DNA from: Actinopolymorpha cephalotaxi
GTDB lineage: Bacteria > Actinomycetota > Actinomycetes > Propionibacteriales > Actinopolymorphaceae
Length of the DNA: 64,000 bases
NCBI RefSeq assembly: GCF_013408535.1
Contig: NZ_JACBZA010000001.1
Location: forward strand, 1,240,001-1,304,000
Reading direction: 5' to 3'
The position numbers and the translations under genes were made by a program. Under the pieces are notes generated by a model. That model searched no databases, was not told the DNA's origin, and saw only the letters and a list, made by a program, of their open reading frames with translations. Below, one piece after another: positions 1,207 to 53,428 of the stretch (the stretch's first letter is position 1; each line of letters begins with the position of its first letter).

Positions 1207-2129
1207 CCGAGCAGGGCCGGCGCGAGTTCGCGCAGCTGGTCCAGCCCGAGCCCGTGTTCGGGGGCGACCGCCTGCAGGAGCACGTGGTCGGCGCCGGCGT
1301 CGAGGTGCGCGCGCACCCTCGTGCGTACGGCGTCGACGTCGCCCCACGCCACGATCGCGTCCACCAGCCGGTCGCTGCCGCCGTCGCCGAAGTCCTCGTC
1401 GGTGAAGCCGAGGGTGCGCAGGTTGTTCGTGTAGTTGGGCAGCCTGAGGTAGTACGACGTGTGCTCCCGGCCCAGCGCACGCGCCTTGTCGGGGTCGGTC
1501 TCGACCAGCACCGCCTGCTCGGGGATCAGCAGCGGCCCGGCACCCAGCACCTCCCGCGCCCGGGCGGTGTGCTCGGGCGGGACAAAGTAGGGGTGCGCGC
1601 CCTGCGTGCGGTCGCGGGCGAGCTCCAGCATCTTCTGCCGCAGCGCGGCGAGCACCACCGGCGGGTCCTCCGTACCGCGGTTCGCCTCGTAGGGCGCGCC
1701 GCCCTCCAGCTGGTCGAGGTAGTCGCGCATCTTGGCCAGCGGGCGTGCGTACTGTCCGCCCCTCGCCTCCACGGCGGGCAGGTGGCTCACACCGAGGCCG
1801 AGCAGGAACCGGCCGGGGAACGCCTCCGACAGCGTCAGCGTGGCCGCCCTGGCCGCGGTCGCGTCCCGGGCCCACACGTTGGCGATGCCGGTGCCCATCG
1901 GGATCCGCGCCGTCGCCGCCAGCAGGACCGCGGTGTTGGTGAACGGCTCCTTCGATAGCGGGGTCTCCGAGACCCAGAGCGAGCCGTAGCCGAGCTCCTC
2001 GATCTCGGCGGCCGCCTCGCGGGCCGAGGCCGCGGACGCCCAGTTCAGGGAGCTGCTCCAGACGCCGACGGCGCCCAGCCGCTCCTTCCAGGTGCCGGGC
2101 TTGGGGGCGTTGCCGGAGAGGGGTGTCAT
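1203..2129 (-). CDS. LLM-class F420-dependent oxidoreductase (TIGR03620-like)
   Basis: A 308-residue luciferase-like TIM-barrel protein. Recognisable parts are the early ELGYGSLWVSE strand, the GTGIANVWARDA region, SEAFPGRFLLGLGVSH and a late DAGADHVLLQA segment, the order seen in TIGR03620-type F420-dependent oxidoreductases of actinomycetes. The expected chemistry is hydride transfer with reduced deazaflavin F420; the substrate cannot be read from sequence. The start at 2129 (ATG, MTPLSGN) was chosen because the open frame continues upstream only through sequence that encodes the TetR gene in another frame. A GAAAGG box lies upstream. It is 37 bases downstream of a TetR gene on the same strand, so the two probably share a transcript and the regulator probably controls it. 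FMN dependence remains an alternative. Confidence 0.88.
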   Translation of the reverse strand: MTPLSGNAPKPGTWKERLGAVGVWSSSLNWASAASAREAAAEIEELGYGSLWVSETPLSKEPFTNTAVLLAATARIPMGTGIANVWARDATAARAATLTLSEAFPGRFLLGLGVSHLPAVEARGGQYARPLAKMRDYLDQLEGGAPYEANRGTEDPPVVLAALRQKMLELARDRTQGAHPYFVPPEHTARAREVLGAGPLLIPEQAVLVETDPDKARALGREHTSYYLRLPNYTNNLRTLGFTDEDFGDGGSDRLVDAIVAWGDVDAVRTRVRAHLDAGADHVLLQAVAPEHGLGLDQLRELAPALLG

Positions 2130-31060: not shown

Positions 31061-31185
31061 AACAAGGACCGGAGCGGTCCCCGCGTGAGGCGGTAGCCAG
31101 GCCGCCGGTCCTCGGTAGTGGCTTCCGGGAGTCCTCCGGGCGAGATCACCACAGACGCGATCACCCCGAGACGTACCCGAGAGCC
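31061..31185 (+). ncRNA. structured 5' leader of pnp, Actino-pnp-like candidate
   Basis: AGGACCGG (31065-31072) pairs perfectly with CCGGTCCT (31105-31112), enclosing a CCGC/GCGG hairpin (31081-31093). Further G/C-rich segments run to about 31185. A conserved leader RNA called Actino-pnp is known upstream of pnp in actinomycetes; I cannot verify the match without a covariance model. Autoregulation of PNPase through its leader would be the expected role. The rest of the gap to pnp shows no gene. Confidence 0.45.
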
Positions 31186-31263
31186 TCGATCGAAGACCGG
31201 CACATCCTGTACCCCACGCACCCCGCGGCAGATCGCTCCCCGATGTCATGAGGAGGGAGCCCC

Positions 31264-45573: not shown

Positions 45574-46755
45574 TCACGAAGGATGGAGGGAGATGATGCG
45601 TCCGTCGTCCTCGAACAACCGGACCGGCCGTGCGAGGGCCTGAGACGCCGCGAGCTCCGTCAGCATCGGGTGTTCCGTCAGCATCGGGTGCTCCGACGTC
45701 AGGGGGTCGCCGTCGAGGCTGAGCCAGCCGCGAACGGCGCCGTACACCCACACGTGGGTGTCGTCCTCGCCCGCCCACAGGGCGAGAACCGTCATCTCCG
45801 GCAGCAGGGCGCGCAGGGTGACGCCGGTGATGCCGTAGACCTCGACACCACCCGGACCGGGGTAGGACTCGATGTCGCACTCGCCGTAGCCGATCCGGAA
45901 GAAACCCCGCTCGCCCCAGCCGGTTCCCCAGCTGTTCTTGGCGATCCAGCACTGTTGGGCGTCGTCGTATCCGACCAGTACGACGCAGTGACCGCCGGTC
46001 GCCGCACCGGACAGGTGCCGGTAGACACCCGACCGGTAGCTGAAGAAGTCCTGGTACACCACGAGGCACGCGACGACCGCGCCGTAGGTGCGCAGGTGTT
46101 CCTTGATCGCGCCCGGGTCGGCGCCGATCCGGGTGAAGCCGGTGACCCGCACCCGCCGGTCGAGCCAGCCGGGGTCCAGGCCGGCGTCGTCGGCGTCGTC
46201 CGGGGAGTACTCGAAGCAGTCCTCGAACGCCACGCCGTTCTCGGCGACCGACGGCAGCAGCCGGCCAGGCCACCACCCGGTGCCCGCGCCCGCACCGTCT
46301 GACCGGCCGTATCCATGGAACGCGTGTGCTTCGGACAGGTCCAGCGGCAGGTCGGGCATCTGCCGGGTGAACCGAGCGACGTGCTCGACGGCCGCCAGCG
46401 TCGCGAACGCCACACAGCTTCCGCAGGGCCCCTGGTCCTTGACCGGGGTGGTGTAGTCGACGCCGGCCACGTCGCGCAGGTCGAAGTGGCCCGCGTCGCC
46501 GCCGTCGCCGTCGGTTCCCCTCGACCGGTCCCCGGAGCGGGGATCCGGAGGGGCCGGCGTCGCCGGGACGGTGACCCGGGGCCCGCGCGGGTCGGCCTCG
46601 GCCGCGCGGGGCCTCGGCAGCGGGACGCGGACCCGGCCGGCGCGTTCGCTCTCCGACAGCGCCGTCATCGGGTTGCGCGCCATCTCCCAGGGCGTGCCGG
46701 CGCCGGTCAGCGTCCGGCCGAGGTCGACCAGATCGAGGGGCTGGTGAACAGGCAT
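45574..46755 (-). CDS. C1A papain-family cysteine protease
   Basis: 393 residues. The catalytic set is complete: Gln108 (oxyanion), Cys114 (DQGPCGSCVAFATLA), His256 (GGHCVVLVGYDD) and Asn274 (AKNSWGTGWGERGFF). A pro-region-like N-terminus of about 90 residues is Arg/Pro-rich. No signal peptide or twin-arginine motif is visible, so the enzyme appears cytoplasmic or exported by an unusual route. After the peptidase domain there is a C-terminal domain of about 75 residues (MTVLALWAGEDDTHVWVYGA, GWLSLDG) containing a tandem E-H-P-M-L-T duplication. GGGGGA precedes the ATG at 46755. A chagasin-type inhibitor gene lies nearby, and the downstream small gene repeats the C-terminal domain. Confidence 0.9.
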   Translation of the reverse strand: MPVHQPLDLVDLGRTLTGAGTPWEMARNPMTALSESERAGRVRVPLPRPRAAEADPRGPRVTVPATPAPPDPRSGDRSRGTDGDGGDAGHFDLRDVAGVDYTTPVKDQGPCGSCVAFATLAAVEHVARFTRQMPDLPLDLSEAHAFHGYGRSDGAGAGTGWWPGRLLPSVAENGVAFEDCFEYSPDDADDAGLDPGWLDRRVRVTGFTRIGADPGAIKEHLRTYGAVVACLVVYQDFFSYRSGVYRHLSGAATGGHCVVLVGYDDAQQCWIAKNSWGTGWGERGFFRIGYGECDIESYPGPGGVEVYGITGVTLRALLPEMTVLALWAGEDDTHVWVYGAVRGWLSLDGDPLTSEHPMLTEHPMLTELAASQALARPVRLFEDDGRIISLHPS

Positions 46756-47005
46756 GGTTCCCCCGTGGGCGGTTCCGGTGGATCGGGGACTCCGGTCGCC
46801 TGCGGGTACGCCGGTGCGGGCCCGGCGGCCGGTCTGATGAGACGGTCTGGTGGAACGATCTGACGGGACGAGCACGAGAGGCCGTGGCGCGGGTCGACGG
46901 CGCCTTTCGGTGGGCCGCCGAAGCGTGCGGGCCCGGTGCTCTGCGACGTCTCCATGGACGCCCTCCAAGGGGTCCCGGGGTATTGACTTCCGGGGCCTTG
47001 CGTTC

Positions 47006-47034
47006 TGGGTACTCCTATGTGAGAAGAGTGACAA
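47006..47034 (-). promoter_or_regulatory. candidate promoter of the papain-like protease operon
   Basis: On the minus strand TTGTCA (47034-47029), a 17-base spacer and TACCCA (47011-47006) resemble a housekeeping promoter. It lies in the 502-base gap between the divergent protease and thyX genes, the most AT-rich part of the neighbourhood. A 250-base leader would result. On the plus strand TAGGCT near 47182 may serve thyX. I see no gene in this gap. Confidence 0.35.
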
Positions 47035-48103: not shown

Positions 48104-48120
48104 GCGAGAGCTCCGCTCAG
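48100..48120. terminator. hairpin containing both stop codons of thyX and the ThrRS gene
   Basis: CTGAGCG (48100-48106) and CGCTCAG (48114-48120) form a perfect 7-bp stem with a 7-base loop. The thyX stop (48101-48103) lies in one arm and the complementary-strand stop of the synthetase (48117-48119) in the other. The convergent genes are separated by only 13 bases. A compact bidirectional terminator is the natural reading. Confidence 0.55.
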
Positions 48121-49469
48121 TCGACGAACCCGAGGTCGCGGCGGCGGTCGGCGACGACCGAAGCCACGGCGTCGACGAAGGCGCCGGCCGGCATCACCGG
48201 TAGCCGTCGGTCGTCGCGCAGCCGGACCGCCACGCTGCCGTCCTCGGCCTCCCGCCCGCCGACCACCGCGAGGTAAGGCACCCGGCGTGGGCGGGCAGCC
48301 CGCACCCGCGCGCCCAGGCTCTCGTCGCGGGCGTCCACGTCCACCCGCAGGCCGGACTCCTCGGCCCGTAGCGCGACCGCACGGGCCGCCTCGGCCTGTG
48401 CCGGGCTCACCGGGAGCACGAGCACCTGGACCGGAGCAAGCCACGGCGGCAGCGCGCCGGCGTAGGCCTCCAGCAGGTAGGCCATCATGCGTTCCATCGA
48501 CGCCAGTACGCTCCGGTGCACCATCGCCGGCCGCTGCCGGCTGCCGTCGGGCGCGACGTACTCCAGGCCGAACCGCTCCGGCTGGTACAGATCCACCTGC
48601 ACGGTCGACAGGGTGAACTCCCGCCCGTGCGCGTCGTACACCTGAACGTCGATCTTCGGGCCGTAGAACGCCGCCTCGCCCCGCACCTCGCGCACCTGCA
48701 CGCCGTGCTGATCCAGCGCGTCCCGCAGGATCGCCTCGGCCCGCTCCCACATCGACGCGTCACCGGCGTAGGACTTGCCCTCCTCCGCCGGGCCGGGCAG
48801 CGACAGCCGGTGGTACGCGGCGCGGATACCGAGCACGTCGTACGCCTCGTCGATCATCGCCAGCGCGCGGACCGCCTCCCGCGCGGCCTGCTCGGGCGGG
48901 CAGAAGATGTGCGCGTCGTTCAGGGTGATGCCGCGCACCCTGGTGAGGCCGCCCACCACCCCCGACCGCTCCATCCGGTACATCGACCCGACCTCACCGA
49001 TCCGCAGCGGCAGCTCCCGGTGGCTGCGCAGCCGGGAGCGGTAGACCAGGGCATGGTGCGGGCACAGCACAGGCCGCAGGACGAGGTCCTCACCGCCCAC
49101 CCGGAACGGCGGGAACATGTCCGGCCCGAAGTGCTGCCAGTGACCGGAGCGTTCGTACAGCGCGCGCTTGCCCACAGCGGGGGTCCGCACGTGCCGGTAG
49201 CCCTGCCGGCGCTCCAGGTCCAGGACGTAGCGCTCGAGTTCGGCGACCACGGCGGCGCCGTCGGGCAGCCAGAGCGGGAAGCCGGCGCCGACGAGTTCGT
49301 CGCCGGTGAAGATGTCGAGCTCGCGGCCGAGCCTGCGGTGGTCGACCGGCCCGTCCCCGGCCCGCTCGCCGGGTTTGTCACGTTCGCAGGGTTCGCGAGG
49401 TTCGACGGGTTCGTCGGGGCCGACGGGTTCGTTGCGCACTGAATCGAAGTGGGAGTGTGGTGCGTTCAT
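48117..49469 (-). CDS. threonyl-tRNA synthetase lacking TGS and editing domains
   Basis: 450 residues, about 190 fewer than E. coli ThrRS. The N-terminal TGS and post-transfer editing domains are absent. The catalytic class II core is intact, with zinc ligands Cys136 (VLCPHH), His187 (NDAHIFC) and His318 (MVHRSVLASMER), the adjacent Asp185, and motif 2 in YRMERSG. The C-terminal anticodon-binding domain is present (WLAPVQVLVLPVSP, RRVPYLAVVGGREAEDG). The first 45 residues are charged and low complexity. It should charge tRNA-Thr without proofreading serine; a full-length ThrRS is presumably encoded elsewhere. A leader peptide with three Thr codons and two hairpins lies upstream. GAAGGAG, 10 bases from the ATG, is in a hairpin stem. 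Confidence 0.93.
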   Translation of the reverse strand: MNAPHSHFDSVRNEPVGPDEPVEPREPCERDKPGERAGDGPVDHRRLGRELDIFTGDELVGAGFPLWLPDGAAVVAELERYVLDLERRQGYRHVRTPAVGKRALYERSGHWQHFGPDMFPPFRVGGEDLVLRPVLCPHHALVYRSRLRSHRELPLRIGEVGSMYRMERSGVVGGLTRVRGITLNDAHIFCPPEQAAREAVRALAMIDEAYDVLGIRAAYHRLSLPGPAEEGKSYAGDASMWERAEAILRDALDQHGVQVREVRGEAAFYGPKIDVQVYDAHGREFTLSTVQVDLYQPERFGLEYVAPDGSRQRPAMVHRSVLASMERMMAYLLEAYAGALPPWLAPVQVLVLPVSPAQAEAARAVALRAEESGLRVDVDARDESLGARVRAARPRRVPYLAVVGGREAEDGSVAVRLRDDRRLPVMPAGAFVDAVASVVADRRRDLGFVD

Positions 49470-49481
49470 CGGGATTCGTCT

Positions 49482-49512
49482 CCTTCGGGTGAGGGAGGGA
49501 GCACCCCGAAAG
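49482..49512 (-). promoter_or_regulatory. hairpin sequestering the ThrRS ribosome-binding site
   Basis: In plus-strand terms CCTTCGGGTG (49482-49491) pairs with CACCCCGAAAG (49502-49512) with one bulge. The minus-strand ribosome site GAAGGAG (49486-49480) lies mostly inside this stem. If formed in the mRNA it should reduce translation of the synthetase. The effect is inferred. Confidence 0.5.
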
Positions 49513-49514
49513 CT

Positions 49515-49547
49515 CGAACGGCCCGGGAGGTGCTCCCGGGCCGTTCG
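49515..49547 (-). terminator. long perfect hairpin in the ThrRS leader (attenuator terminator candidate)
   Basis: CGAACGGCCCGGGAG (49515-49529) and CTCCCGGGCCGTTCG (49533-49547) form a perfect 15-bp stem with a 3-base loop, the strongest hairpin in the window. It lies 46 bases downstream of the leader peptide stop and 45 bases before the synthetase start. A strict T-tract is missing; UUCGAGCUUUCGG follows on the minus strand. Confidence 0.75.
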
Positions 49548-49593
49548 CGTGGGCTGTTCGTCGCCGTTGTCGACTGATCGTTTCTGGAAAGTC

Positions 49594-49680
49594 TCAGGAA
49601 AGATCGTCGGGACGAGGCCGCCGCGTCGCCGGAAGCGACTGCGGCGTCGTCGTGCTGAACAGGACCGACGCGAAGTTCAC
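49594..49680 (-). CDS. threonine-rich leader peptide upstream of the ThrRS gene
   Basis: A 28-codon frame starts at GTG 49680 and ends at TGA 49594-49596. The peptide begins MNFASVLFSTTTPQSLPATR. Thr codons occur at positions 10, 11, 12 and 19, all ACG, with three in a row. The GTG lies 6 bases after a TACGCT -10 box (49692-49687), so the transcript would start at or next to the start codon. The layout of leader peptide, hairpin and threonyl-tRNA synthetase is what ribosome-mediated attenuation requires: scarce charged tRNA-Thr would stall ribosomes at the ACG run and change downstream folding. Not verified by comparison. Confidence 0.65.
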   Translation of the reverse strand: MNFASVLFSTTTPQSLPATRRPRPDDLS

Positions 49681-49686
49681 ACGCCG

Positions 49687-49692
49687 AGCGTA
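49687..49692 (-). promoter_or_regulatory. -10 box of the ThrRS leader transcript
   Basis: TACGCT on the minus strand (49692-49687) followed by 6 bases and the leader peptide GTG. No convincing -35 is seen, as is common for such promoters. The divergent dapA has its own TAGCGT box at 49749-49754. Confidence 0.5.
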
Positions 49693-49762: not shown

Positions 49763-50680
49763 ATGGCTCCCAGCTCAACGCCTGCCGAGGCGCCCCGCGC
49801 CCCCCTCGGCCGCGTCCTCACCGCGATGGTCACCCCGCTCACCGCCGGTGGCGACCTCGACCTGCCCGCCGCGCAGCGCCTGGCCACCCACCTGGTCGAC
49901 TCCGGCAACGACGGCCTGGTGGTCAGTGGCACCACCGGTGAGTCGCCGACCACCAGTGACGCGGAGAAGGACGCGCTGCTGCGAGCTGTCGTGGAGGCGG
50001 TCGGCGACCGGGCGACCGTGGTCGCCGGCACCGGCACCAACGACACCCGGCACGCCGTCGAGCTGTCGGTCCAGGCGGAGAAGGCCGGCGCGCACGGCCT
50101 GCTCGTGGTGACGCCCTACTACAACAAGCCCCCGCAGGAAGGCCTGCTGGCGCACTTCCGCACCATCGCCGACTCCACCGGCCTGCCGGTGATGCTGTAC
50201 GACATCCCCGGCCGCACCGGCACCGCGATCGCGACCGAGACGCTGGTCCGGCTCGCCGAGCACGACCGGATCGTCGCCGTGAAGGACGCGAAGGGCGACA
50301 TCGCCGGCACCACCGCCGTGCTGGCGCGCTCCGACCTCGCCTACTACAGCGGCTCCGACGAGTGGAACCTCGCCCTGCTGGCGACCGGCGCCGTCGGCGT
50401 GGTGAGCGTCGTCTCGCACGTCGCGTCCAGGGAGTACGCCGACATGGTCGCCGCCGTCGACGCGGGTGACCTCGCGTCCGCGCGGGCGATCGACCGCCGC
50501 CTGGTCCCCGCGTTCCAGGCGATCATGACCCGAACCCAAGGAGCGATCATGGCCAAGGCCGCGCTCGAAGTGCTGGGCGTCCTGCCCGGCCGAACCGTCC
50601 GACCTCCGCTGGTCCCGGCCACGGAGGACCAGCTCAGGGAGCTGGAAGCCGACCTGCGGGCGGCTGGACTCACCTCATGA
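49763..50680 (+). CDS. dapA: 4-hydroxy-tetrahydrodipicolinate synthase
   Basis: 305 residues. DapA condenses pyruvate with aspartate semialdehyde, the first step of the lysine/DAP branch. The Schiff-base lysine is Lys174 (IVAVKDAKGD), Tyr146 is in MLYDIPGRTG, and SGTTGESPT binds pyruvate. Length and order of motifs are standard, in contrast to the two diverged relatives at 52.4 and 55 kb. The ATG lies 8 bases after TAGCGT (49749-49754), which again suggests a leaderless mRNA. It overlaps the RNase J gene by 4 bases (ATGA), the usual actinobacterial pairing. Confidence 0.97.
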   Translation: MAPSSTPAEAPRAPLGRVLTAMVTPLTAGGDLDLPAAQRLATHLVDSGNDGLVVSGTTGESPTTSDAEKDALLRAVVEAVGDRATVVAGTGTNDTRHAVELSVQAEKAGAHGLLVVTPYYNKPPQEGLLAHFRTIADSTGLPVMLYDIPGRTGTAIATETLVRLAEHDRIVAVKDAKGDIAGTTAVLARSDLAYYSGSDEWNLALLATGAVGVVSVVSHVASREYADMVAAVDAGDLASARAIDRRLVPAFQAIMTRTQGAIMAKAALEVLGVLPGRTVRPPLVPATEDQLRELEADLRAAGLTS

Positions 50681-52381: not shown

Positions 52382-53428
52382 TCAGCCGGCGAGGGCGTCC
52401 AGTTGCTTGAGCAGGGCAGCGCGTTCGCCGGCGGGCAGCGCCGGGGCGTACGGGTCGAACGCGACCTCGGCGGGCAGCAGGCCCTGCCAGGCCGCCACCC
52501 AGGCCATCCGCTGGACGTAGCCCTCCATCGGTTCGCGGAACGTCAACCGGGCAAGGGCGTCCAGCCGCCCGGAGGCGCGGACGAACCCCGCGAGGTCGCC
52601 GCGCGTCCAGGTGTCCAGGACGGCTGCCGACCACGCGGGCAGCGCGGCGGCGATCCCGAGCAGCGCCGCCTGGGCGCCCCACATCAGCGACGGCCCGTAC
52701 ATCCGGTCCTCGCCGGTGAACACCAGCGCGTCCGGTGCCGTGGCGGTGGCCGTCTCGAGCAGGTCCTGACAGGCCATCGCGTCGTCCAGCAAGGCCAGCT
52801 TGACACCGCACACCCAGGGCAGCGTGAGGAGCTCGGCGACCGTGGCCGCGTCGTACTGCAGCCGGCTCGCCCGCTCGTACAACACGAACGCCACCAGCGG
52901 AAGCCCGACCTCCTCGCCGAGCCGGACGTGCAGGTCGACCGTCGCGGCCCGGTCGGCATACGGCACGGGGGACACCAGCAGAGCCCGGGCACCGGCGTCG
53001 CGCAGCCTCGCTCCGAGTGCGACGAGCTCGTCCGGCGTGCCGGCGTCGGCGGGCAGCGACAGCCCGGCCACGACCGGCGCCCCGGTCGCGTCACCGCACT
53101 CGCGGACCAGGAAGGTCAGGTCGCGGGCGGTGAGGTGGACGCCGCGCCCGGTGTGCGCGCCGACCGCCAGGCCACGAGAACCGGCCTCGACGAGCGCCGC
53201 GGCGTACGGCGCCACGGCCGAGCGCGCCACGGTGCCGTCGGGGTGGAACGGCGTGAGCGTGGCGGCCACGAGCCCACCCCGCAGCAGGTCGCGCACCTGC
53301 GCGACGGCCGGAGTCGTGCCGGGCGCCGGGCCGGACGACGCCTCCGGCGCTGCGCCGGGCGCCGCGCCGGTGGCGGCGCCGGCTGGGTCGGTCGGTGAGT
53401 TTCCGGGCGATCCTGGACTGGCGGTCAT
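52382..53428 (-). CDS. DHDPS/N-acetylneuraminate lyase family protein (diverged)
   Basis: 348 residues. A class I aldolase-type TIM barrel: the predicted Schiff-base lysine is Lys210 (VCGVKLALLDD) and the tyrosine is in FVLYERASRLQYD. The pyruvate loop, normally GTTGE, is replaced by GAHTGRGVHLT, so the substrate is unlikely to be that of DapA. About 40 Pro/Ala/Gly-rich residues precede the barrel. It is divergent from the regulator gene at 53551, with an operator between them, and is probably part of a sugar-acid or related catabolic pathway. Confidence 0.85.
   Translation of the reverse strand: MTASPGSPGNSPTDPAGAATGAAPGAAPEASSGPAPGTTPAVAQVRDLLRGGLVAATLTPFHPDGTVARSAVAPYAAALVEAGSRGLAVGAHTGRGVHLTARDLTFLVRECGDATGAPVVAGLSLPADAGTPDELVALGARLRDAGARALLVSPVPYADRAATVDLHVRLGEEVGLPLVAFVLYERASRLQYDAATVAELLTLPWVCGVKLALLDDAMACQDLLETATATAPDALVFTGEDRMYGPSLMWGAQAALLGIAAALPAWSAAVLDTWTRGDLAGFVRASGRLDALARLTFREPMEGYVQRMAWVAAWQGLLPAEVAFDPYAPALPAGERAALLKQLDALAG

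Follow-up and report, generated by a model that had tools for sequence, protein, structure and literature searches.

The spare threonyl-tRNA synthetase (ThrRS) gene of Actinopolymorpha cephalotaxi, thrS2, is preceded by a leader that is likely to be a ribosome-controlled RNA switch, one that would sense charged tRNA-Thr and set the expression of an editing-less ThrRS. The parts of this reading carry different weight: stalling of the ribosome at threonine codons is very likely the signal, and the Shine-Dalgarno sequence (SD) of the synthetase gene is, on balance, probably the main output. The decision would be carried by mutually exclusive helices in the RNA, of which 1:2, 3:4, L:5 and 5:6 are supported by comparison among relatives and 2:3 is complementary and hardly covaries (the segments are described below). 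The attenuator reading as such appears well supported by the same comparison, and part of it is already in print; the relay that ends at the SD is the new part. All positions refer to the window, the stretch of 64,000 nucleotides that was analysed.

The thrS2 gene (48117-49469, minus strand) encodes a short ThrRS of 450 aa, identified with TIGR00418 and Pfam, that consists of catalytic and anticodon-binding domains only. Its product scores 437 bits against TIGR00418 (cut-off 383.65) over profile positions 171-562 of 565, and Pfam finds the class II core and the anticodon domain, with the TGS and editing domains absent. Because a longer ThrRS is encoded elsewhere in the same genome (at about G000:C1:2616886-2618841; 41% identical over the shared part), thrS2 is a second copy. 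Two proteins that resemble DapA by eye are encoded close together nearby, at 49763-50680 (plus strand) and 52382-53428 (minus strand); the former is divergent from the leader promoter and adjoins thrS2 in all seven Actinopolymorpha loci tested. This dapA/thyX neighbourhood is kept in Actinopolymorpha only (7 of 37 loci, from five genomes plus two repeats), most of the other loci having been viewed with 1.5 kb flanks. Further along, an open reading frame at 45574-47034 (minus strand) resembles a papain-type cysteine peptidase, with CGSC and NSWGTGWG motifs recognized by eye.

From the letters of the window, the first-pass annotation had proposed a threonine attenuator made of a promoter box, a leader peptide, a perfect hairpin and a second hairpin over the ribosome site of the synthetase, and each of these parts was borne out. 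Read letter by letter on the minus strand, a -10 box TACGCT (49692-49687) is followed after a gap of 6 nt by the GTG (49680) of a 28-codon leader ORF (49680-49594; peptide VNFASVLFSTTTPQSLPATRRPRPDDLS). ACG (Thr) stands at leader codons 10, 11, 12 and 19, and the run ACG-ACG-ACG of codons 10-12 (49653-49645) is followed by CCG. The position of the -10 box suggests that the transcript is probably leaderless, starting at or next to the GTG. Downstream lies the 15-bp hairpin (49547-49515), in which arm 3 (CGAACGGCCCGGGAG, 49547-49533) and arm 4 (CTCCCGGGCCGTTCG, 49529-49515) form helix 3:4 around the loop CAC; its tail, AGCTTTCGGG, has no U-tract. The predicted fold of 49692-49467, a region that folds with z = -5.0 against 200 shuffles, also contains the second hairpin: CTCC (49497-49494) pairs with GGAG (49483-49480) within TCGGGGT (49509-49503) paired to ATCCCGA (49475-49469). 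Full-length 3:4 together with this second hairpin, 5:6, is the best predicted fold for the window.

A short ThrRS was found at E ≤ 1e-115 in 61 of the 394 genomes of the class sample, by a search that was not exhaustive, as the short ThrRS of genome G093 emerged only through the RNA model described below. L056 and G297 (gene begins at base 37 of the contig) were left out for too little upstream sequence, and two rows were excluded as lying outside this short-ThrRS group: L002, which is full length, and L012, which is 40% identical and in which no leader was found. The first-pass annotation had held that loss of the leader frame or of the Thr run in close relatives would speak against it. No such loss was seen: a short ORF holding the Thr run is present in every one of the 64 sampled genomes that have a close short ThrRS and enough sequence upstream of it (59 from the class and 5 other Actinopolymorpha). 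With duplicate rows removed (L010, L011, L051 and L055), 63 unique leaders were compared, selected by the rule AC[C/G] three times and then CC; the thrS starts across them were chosen by script and not individually checked. Codons 2 and 3 of the run are ACG and the next codon is CCG in all 63, and codon 1 is ACG in 61 of 63. In all 63 leaders an in-frame start is preceded, at a distance of 6-7 nt, by a TANNNT motif, which is true of 8 of 727 background starts (1.1%); as each leader was tried with several in-frame starts, this background is somewhat too low. The comparison thus shows that the leader frame is conserved along with the Thr run and the promoter box.

The helices were examined across the same 63 leaders in two ways: a swap test, in which partners were exchanged among leaders and own pairing was compared with swapped pairing, and column counts on a MAFFT alignment, which record the cells paired and the cells changed on both sides against slid controls. 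All of these helix tests rest on shuffle, swap and slide controls and are not tree-aware. Hairpins were called twice, as the first caller chose L:5 or other stems in some loci, and the hairpin of L033 was set by hand for the swap tests, not when the helices were first read off. Helix 3:4 gave a swap z of -12.5, with 89.6% of cells paired and 35 double changes (slid controls at most 61% and 15), and 8 of its 14 pairs show changes on both sides. Segment L (GGGAGCACCTC, 49537-49527) comprises the end of arm 3, the loop and the start of arm 4, and its partner is segment 5 (GGGGTGCTCCC, 49507-49497), which can pair either with L or, in an overlapping fashion, with the SD region. L:5 gave z = -9.5, 90.9% of cells paired and 32 double changes (slid at most 58% and 24). 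Besides the window pair GGGAGCACCTC:GGGGTGCTCCC, examples from other leaders are GGGCGAGTG:CACTCGCCC, GGGCGGGTG:CACCCGCCC and GGGCGAACG:CGTTCGCCC; in several leaders (for example L025, L043, L047, L066, L071 and L072) the best L:5 stretch is situated elsewhere.

In hairpin 5:6, the anti-SD strand (49509-49494) faces segment 6 (49485-49469), which holds the SD AAGGAG (49485-49480) and ATCCCGA and is masked by segment 5 in the predicted fold. This helix was first tested on 33 of the 63 leaders (z = -5.3) and later on all 63 (z = -7.4); 76.6% of cells are paired, with 41 double changes (slid at most 53% and 37), and in a shuffle control 56 and 66 of 500 shuffles equalled the observed pairing on two of five measures. 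Near the start of the leader, segment 1 (TCGCGTCG, 49673-49666) pairs with CGACGCGG (49628-49621) to form helix 1:2. Its swap z was -4.4 with the window of comparison cut to the leader ORF and +2.0 with a wider one, the narrower having been chosen after the wide result was seen; 86.8% of cells are paired, with 6 double changes (slid at most 57% and 8). When the six Actinopolymorpha leaders were removed, swap z values were -7.3 for L:5, -6.5 for 5:6, -2.8 for 1:2 and +1.2 for 2:3, and on 48 less similar leaders they were -7.7 for L:5 and -7.4 for 5:6. Twelve negative-control pairings gave z between -2.7 and +2.0, two of them nominally significant (L with reversed segment 5, z = -2.7; segment 5 with the coding start, z = -1.9). 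On these comparisons 3:4 and L:5 can be called firm, 5:6 fairly firm and 1:2 moderate; the case for 2:3 is one of complementarity.

The first-pass annotation could not work out a convincing antiterminator, and there is now a candidate, although its covariation is weak. Segment 2, CTTCCGG (49635-49629), probably serves as the antiterminator strand by pairing with CCGGGAG (49539-49533), the last 7 nt of arm 3. Helix 2:3 gave no signal in the swap test on the 63 leaders (z = -0.2, and -1.2 with wide windows). In the alignment 94.5% of its cells are paired, with 4 double changes, found by reading in L001 and L005-L007 (slid at most 80% and 10), and the strands hardly vary. In the window it starts 12 nt downstream from where the third ACG begins, and the best stretch opens at +12 in 44 of 63 leaders. 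L:5 and 2:3 share a few bases, so both cannot form at full length. A further stem, between bases just after the Thr run and bases a little downstream, has at least 6 pairs in 62 of 63 leaders, a count made with no control comparison (6 pairs in 59, 7 in two and 8 in one, with 5 in the remaining leader); this stem may account for the constant CCG.

These pairings suggest how charging of tRNA-Thr could be read out at the SD. When tRNA-Thr is charged, the ribosome would cross the three ACG codons and 3:4 would form in full, leaving segment 5 to pair with segment 6 and mask the SD of thrS. When tRNA-Thr is uncharged, the ribosome would stall on ACG. The edge of a ribosome stalled there would lie at about the start of segment 2, 12 nt downstream from where the third ACG begins. 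Pairing of segment 2 with arm 3, at its inner half, could then open hairpin 3:4, and the freed loop strand L would capture segment 5 and release the SD. If the leader is not translated at all, helix 1:2 and the hairpin after the Thr run could hold segment 2. Since the window leader ends downstream of segment 2, a ribosome that has reached the stop codon would leave that segment uncovered, and the OFF state of the window would therefore differ in detail from that of the short leaders that end in VPAR.

The leading alternative turns on termination of transcription. The first-pass annotation had taken the Thr codon run, hairpin and cognate synthetase as the expected parts of ribosome-mediated attenuation. 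That much stands, in that leader, hairpin and synthetase are conserved together and most helices covary, but the output need not be termination. In a classical transcription attenuator, 3:4 would act as the terminator although it is poor in U, with 2:3 as its antiterminator, and the pairings farther downstream would be secondary. Leader, Thr run, segment 2 and hairpin follow one another in the order and at the distances of the textbook layout, attenuators have been predicted for Streptomyces leuS and trpS (available text of PMC1262725), and thrL of S. lividans is listed as an attenuator from RNA-seq (available text of PMC8079986). However, the GC-rich hairpin mostly comes without the U-tract of a terminator: a run of four U is missing in 59 of 63 hairpins, with four or more consecutive U present in the other 4, and the accessible part of PMC8079986 itself gives thrL one hairpin and no uridine-rich stretch. 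Moreover, only a transcript that extends past the hairpin contains segments 5 and 6; L:5 and 5:6, which covary, could not act on a transcript that ended there. The U-poor hairpins and the location of segment 5 favour a relay that exposes the SD over plain termination, and we consider the classical scheme unlikely, if still a serious contender. Folding energies are equivocal and do not decide between the two. The OFF fold is predicted to be about 11 kcal/mol better on average than the 2:3 fold at equilibrium across the 63 leaders. Forcing 2:3 yields L:5 with at least 4 pairs in 36 of 63; pairing of the SD drops in 15, rises in 7 and stays unchanged in 41. The SD region has a conserved alternative pairing in 5:6; its accessibility is no lower than in chimeras (unpaired 0.273 against 0.284; 0.310 when shuffled).

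A different proposal is a pseudoknot of outer 3:4 and L:5 that persists whichever state the leader is in and might, for instance, stabilize the mRNA. The outer 9 bp of 3:4 are compatible in sequence with L:5, and a pseudoknot has been proposed for the actinobacterial LEU element (available text of PMC1262725), but such a structure would account neither for helix 5:6 and the spacing of segment 2 nor for the conservation of the Thr run. The best fold of the window, full 3:4 with 5:6, also stands against it, a weak point as the folding program cannot form pseudoknots, and overall we find this explanation improbable. About equally doubtful is a leader that senses ribosome-targeting antibiotics and not threonine, in the manner of the wblC/whiB7 upstream ORF. 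In its favour, thrS2 of S. coelicolor lies within the WblC regulon (available text of PMC7157823) and a GAAAWY box occurs 32-34 nt before the start of the -10 box in 21 of 63 promoters, against about 0.1 expected from its frequency over the loci as a whole; yet that box accounts for promoter control and not for the leader and is missing in the window and its nearest relatives L005-L007, and the constant ACG run before a ThrRS points to tRNA-Thr. Chance, a random ORF and hairpin in a GC-rich intergenic region, deserves mention because Thr triples do arise in short ORFs by chance (in 2 of 85 upstream regions of full-length ThrRS, with 12 for Arg and 6 for Ala), so that the Thr run by itself is weak evidence. 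It is the conservation that makes the leader real: the 64 of 64 genomes, the -10 boxes in every unique leader and the covarying helices refute a chance origin, which we regard as vanishingly improbable.

The distribution of the proposed switch was followed with a covariance model, R1, built from the 63 leaders; at E ≤ 0.001 it matched 69 genomes of the 394 in the class sample. There were 60 matches at E ≤ 2.8e-6, and 57 of them fall in the 61 genomes with a short ThrRS, as is to be expected from the way the model was built; among the other four short-ThrRS genomes, that of the window (G000) matched at 2.5e-4, G157 and G297 have truncated loci and G205 was missed. The window leader aligns with the family with a low score of 38.4 bits. 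New through R1 were G093 (short ThrRS), G239 (leader at a contig end) and G246, which, like the weaker match G382, precedes an apparently full-length ThrRS, these full-length calls having been made by eye from a long open frame and N-terminus. The Thr-run leaders with hairpin that stand before an apparently full-length ThrRS in these two genomes are L082 and L084. Among 149 phylum genomes, G437 (L074), from another class, has both the leader and a short ThrRS, possibly through transfer. Six leaders outside the alignment (L074, L081, L082, L084, L087 and L088) all have the -10 box and 3:4 as well as a 2:3 of 6-7 bp; L:5 at its best reaches 7-13 bp in five of them and 6 bp in L084, and predicted masking of the SD is clear in L074, L081 and L088, partial in L082 and not clear in L084 and L087. 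Other weak R1 matches that were opened (G342, a second site in G064, and G120) proved to be unrelated hairpins, and L077, L079 and L080 (in G433, G427 and a second site in G437), tested for ThrRS similarity, showed none.

Full-length ThrRS genes were surveyed separately. Their upstream regions held a three-Thr-codon leader with a -10 box in 0 of 98 cases, a count that would miss leaders with only two consecutive Thr codons, as in thrL. The 98 derive from 100 regions, two of which were too short, taken from 99 genomes out of 121 that had a match; 85 were screened by script and 13 for the Thr run only. L145 and L152 have a Thr run without a -10 box, and in L173 and L175 the run looks, by eye, like the start of the ThrRS itself. 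The survey gives no support to the leader as a general feature of ThrRS genes, and the leader is therefore associated mainly with the spare copy.

The classical form of leader-peptide attenuation is a terminator switch, as in the enterobacterial thrABC leader, which has Thr and Ile codons, precedes a biosynthetic operon, ends in a U-tract terminator and shares with the thrS2 leader the Thr codons of its peptide. T-box control of Bacillus thrS and thrZ responds to the same signal and acts on the same kind of target gene, but there the tRNA binds the RNA directly and no leader peptide is involved. An Rfam and T-box search of 11 loci gave no match over the leader; in the window only the Actino-pnp RNA (RF01688) matched, at 31104-31201 on the plus strand (60 bits, above the gathering score), and in L026 a TPP riboswitch match at 1254-1377 (minus strand) falls just under its gathering score (50 of 54.3 bits). 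The attenuators predicted for trpS and leuS in Streptomyces likewise have a cognate-codon leader before a synthetase gene and alternative hairpins; unlike the thrS2 hairpins, the leuS and trp terminators are said to be followed by poly-U, and the available text reports no attenuator for threonine and finds the RNA structure of threonine operons not to be conserved (PMC1262725). The same source describes the LEU element of leuA in Actinobacteria, which resembles the thrS2 leader in its cognate-codon leader and in pairings that involve the downstream SD. In the LEU element the Leu codon run itself pairs with the SD, whereas in thrS2 a separate segment would be common to the hairpin loop and the SD.

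The first-pass annotation was not aware of this layout for an editing-domain-less ThrRS, and in this it was mistaken, for the accessible part of a 2021 RNA-seq study of Streptomyces lividans TK24 describes thrL (MKRVRPFLETTPGFVPAR; SLIV_19412) upstream of thrS (SLIV_19410) (PMC8079986). As described there, thrL is like the window leader a short Thr-codon ORF, said to be leaderless, followed by one hairpin without a uridine-rich sequence and then thrS; several reported S. lividans leaders lack a U-tract. The window leader is longer than thrL and of other sequence, thrL has two Thr codons, and the available text gives no antiterminator, species comparison or SD pairing (PMC8079986). The exact thrL peptide was found in 1 of 150 genomes taken as Streptomyces (G663), before a short ThrRS that is 65% identical to P0001, so thrL is an orthologous leader before an orthologous short ThrRS. 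No prior work on this leader beyond PMC8079986 was found in the open-access literature; thrS goes unmentioned in the accessible portions of PMC4833913 and PMC13236596.

The available text on the S. coelicolor WblC regulon lists thrS2 (PMC7157823, Table 1) and gives the regulon's GAAAWY box as 3 nt upstream of the -35 element; this thrS2 appears to be the short ThrRS discussed here. Relatives with such a box in the promoter include L015, L016 and L088. In 37 of 63 leaders, against a background of 0.5%, a looser GAAA lies 30-36 nt before the start of the -10 box, and GAAA is also seen at -33 in the leader whose peptide is identical to thrL. The window promoter has neither form at the expected place. 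Borrelidin resistance was considered as a role for the spare enzyme on the basis of the accessible text of PMC4389257. A fuller picture, which we would put a little short of an even chance, is a terminator-free, Thr-specific relay of three strand exchanges that, together with a WblC-type box in a third of the leaders, brings a backup ThrRS under both antibiotic and charging control. If true, an output that lies past the hairpin, at the SD, would account for how hairpins poor in U can work. A further suggestion from the comparison is that the editing-less spare enzyme of Actinopolymorpha, Planomonospora, as read Streptomyces, and others is an inducible backup for times when Thr-tRNA is short, one that in some species may also be made under antibiotic attack on ribosomes.
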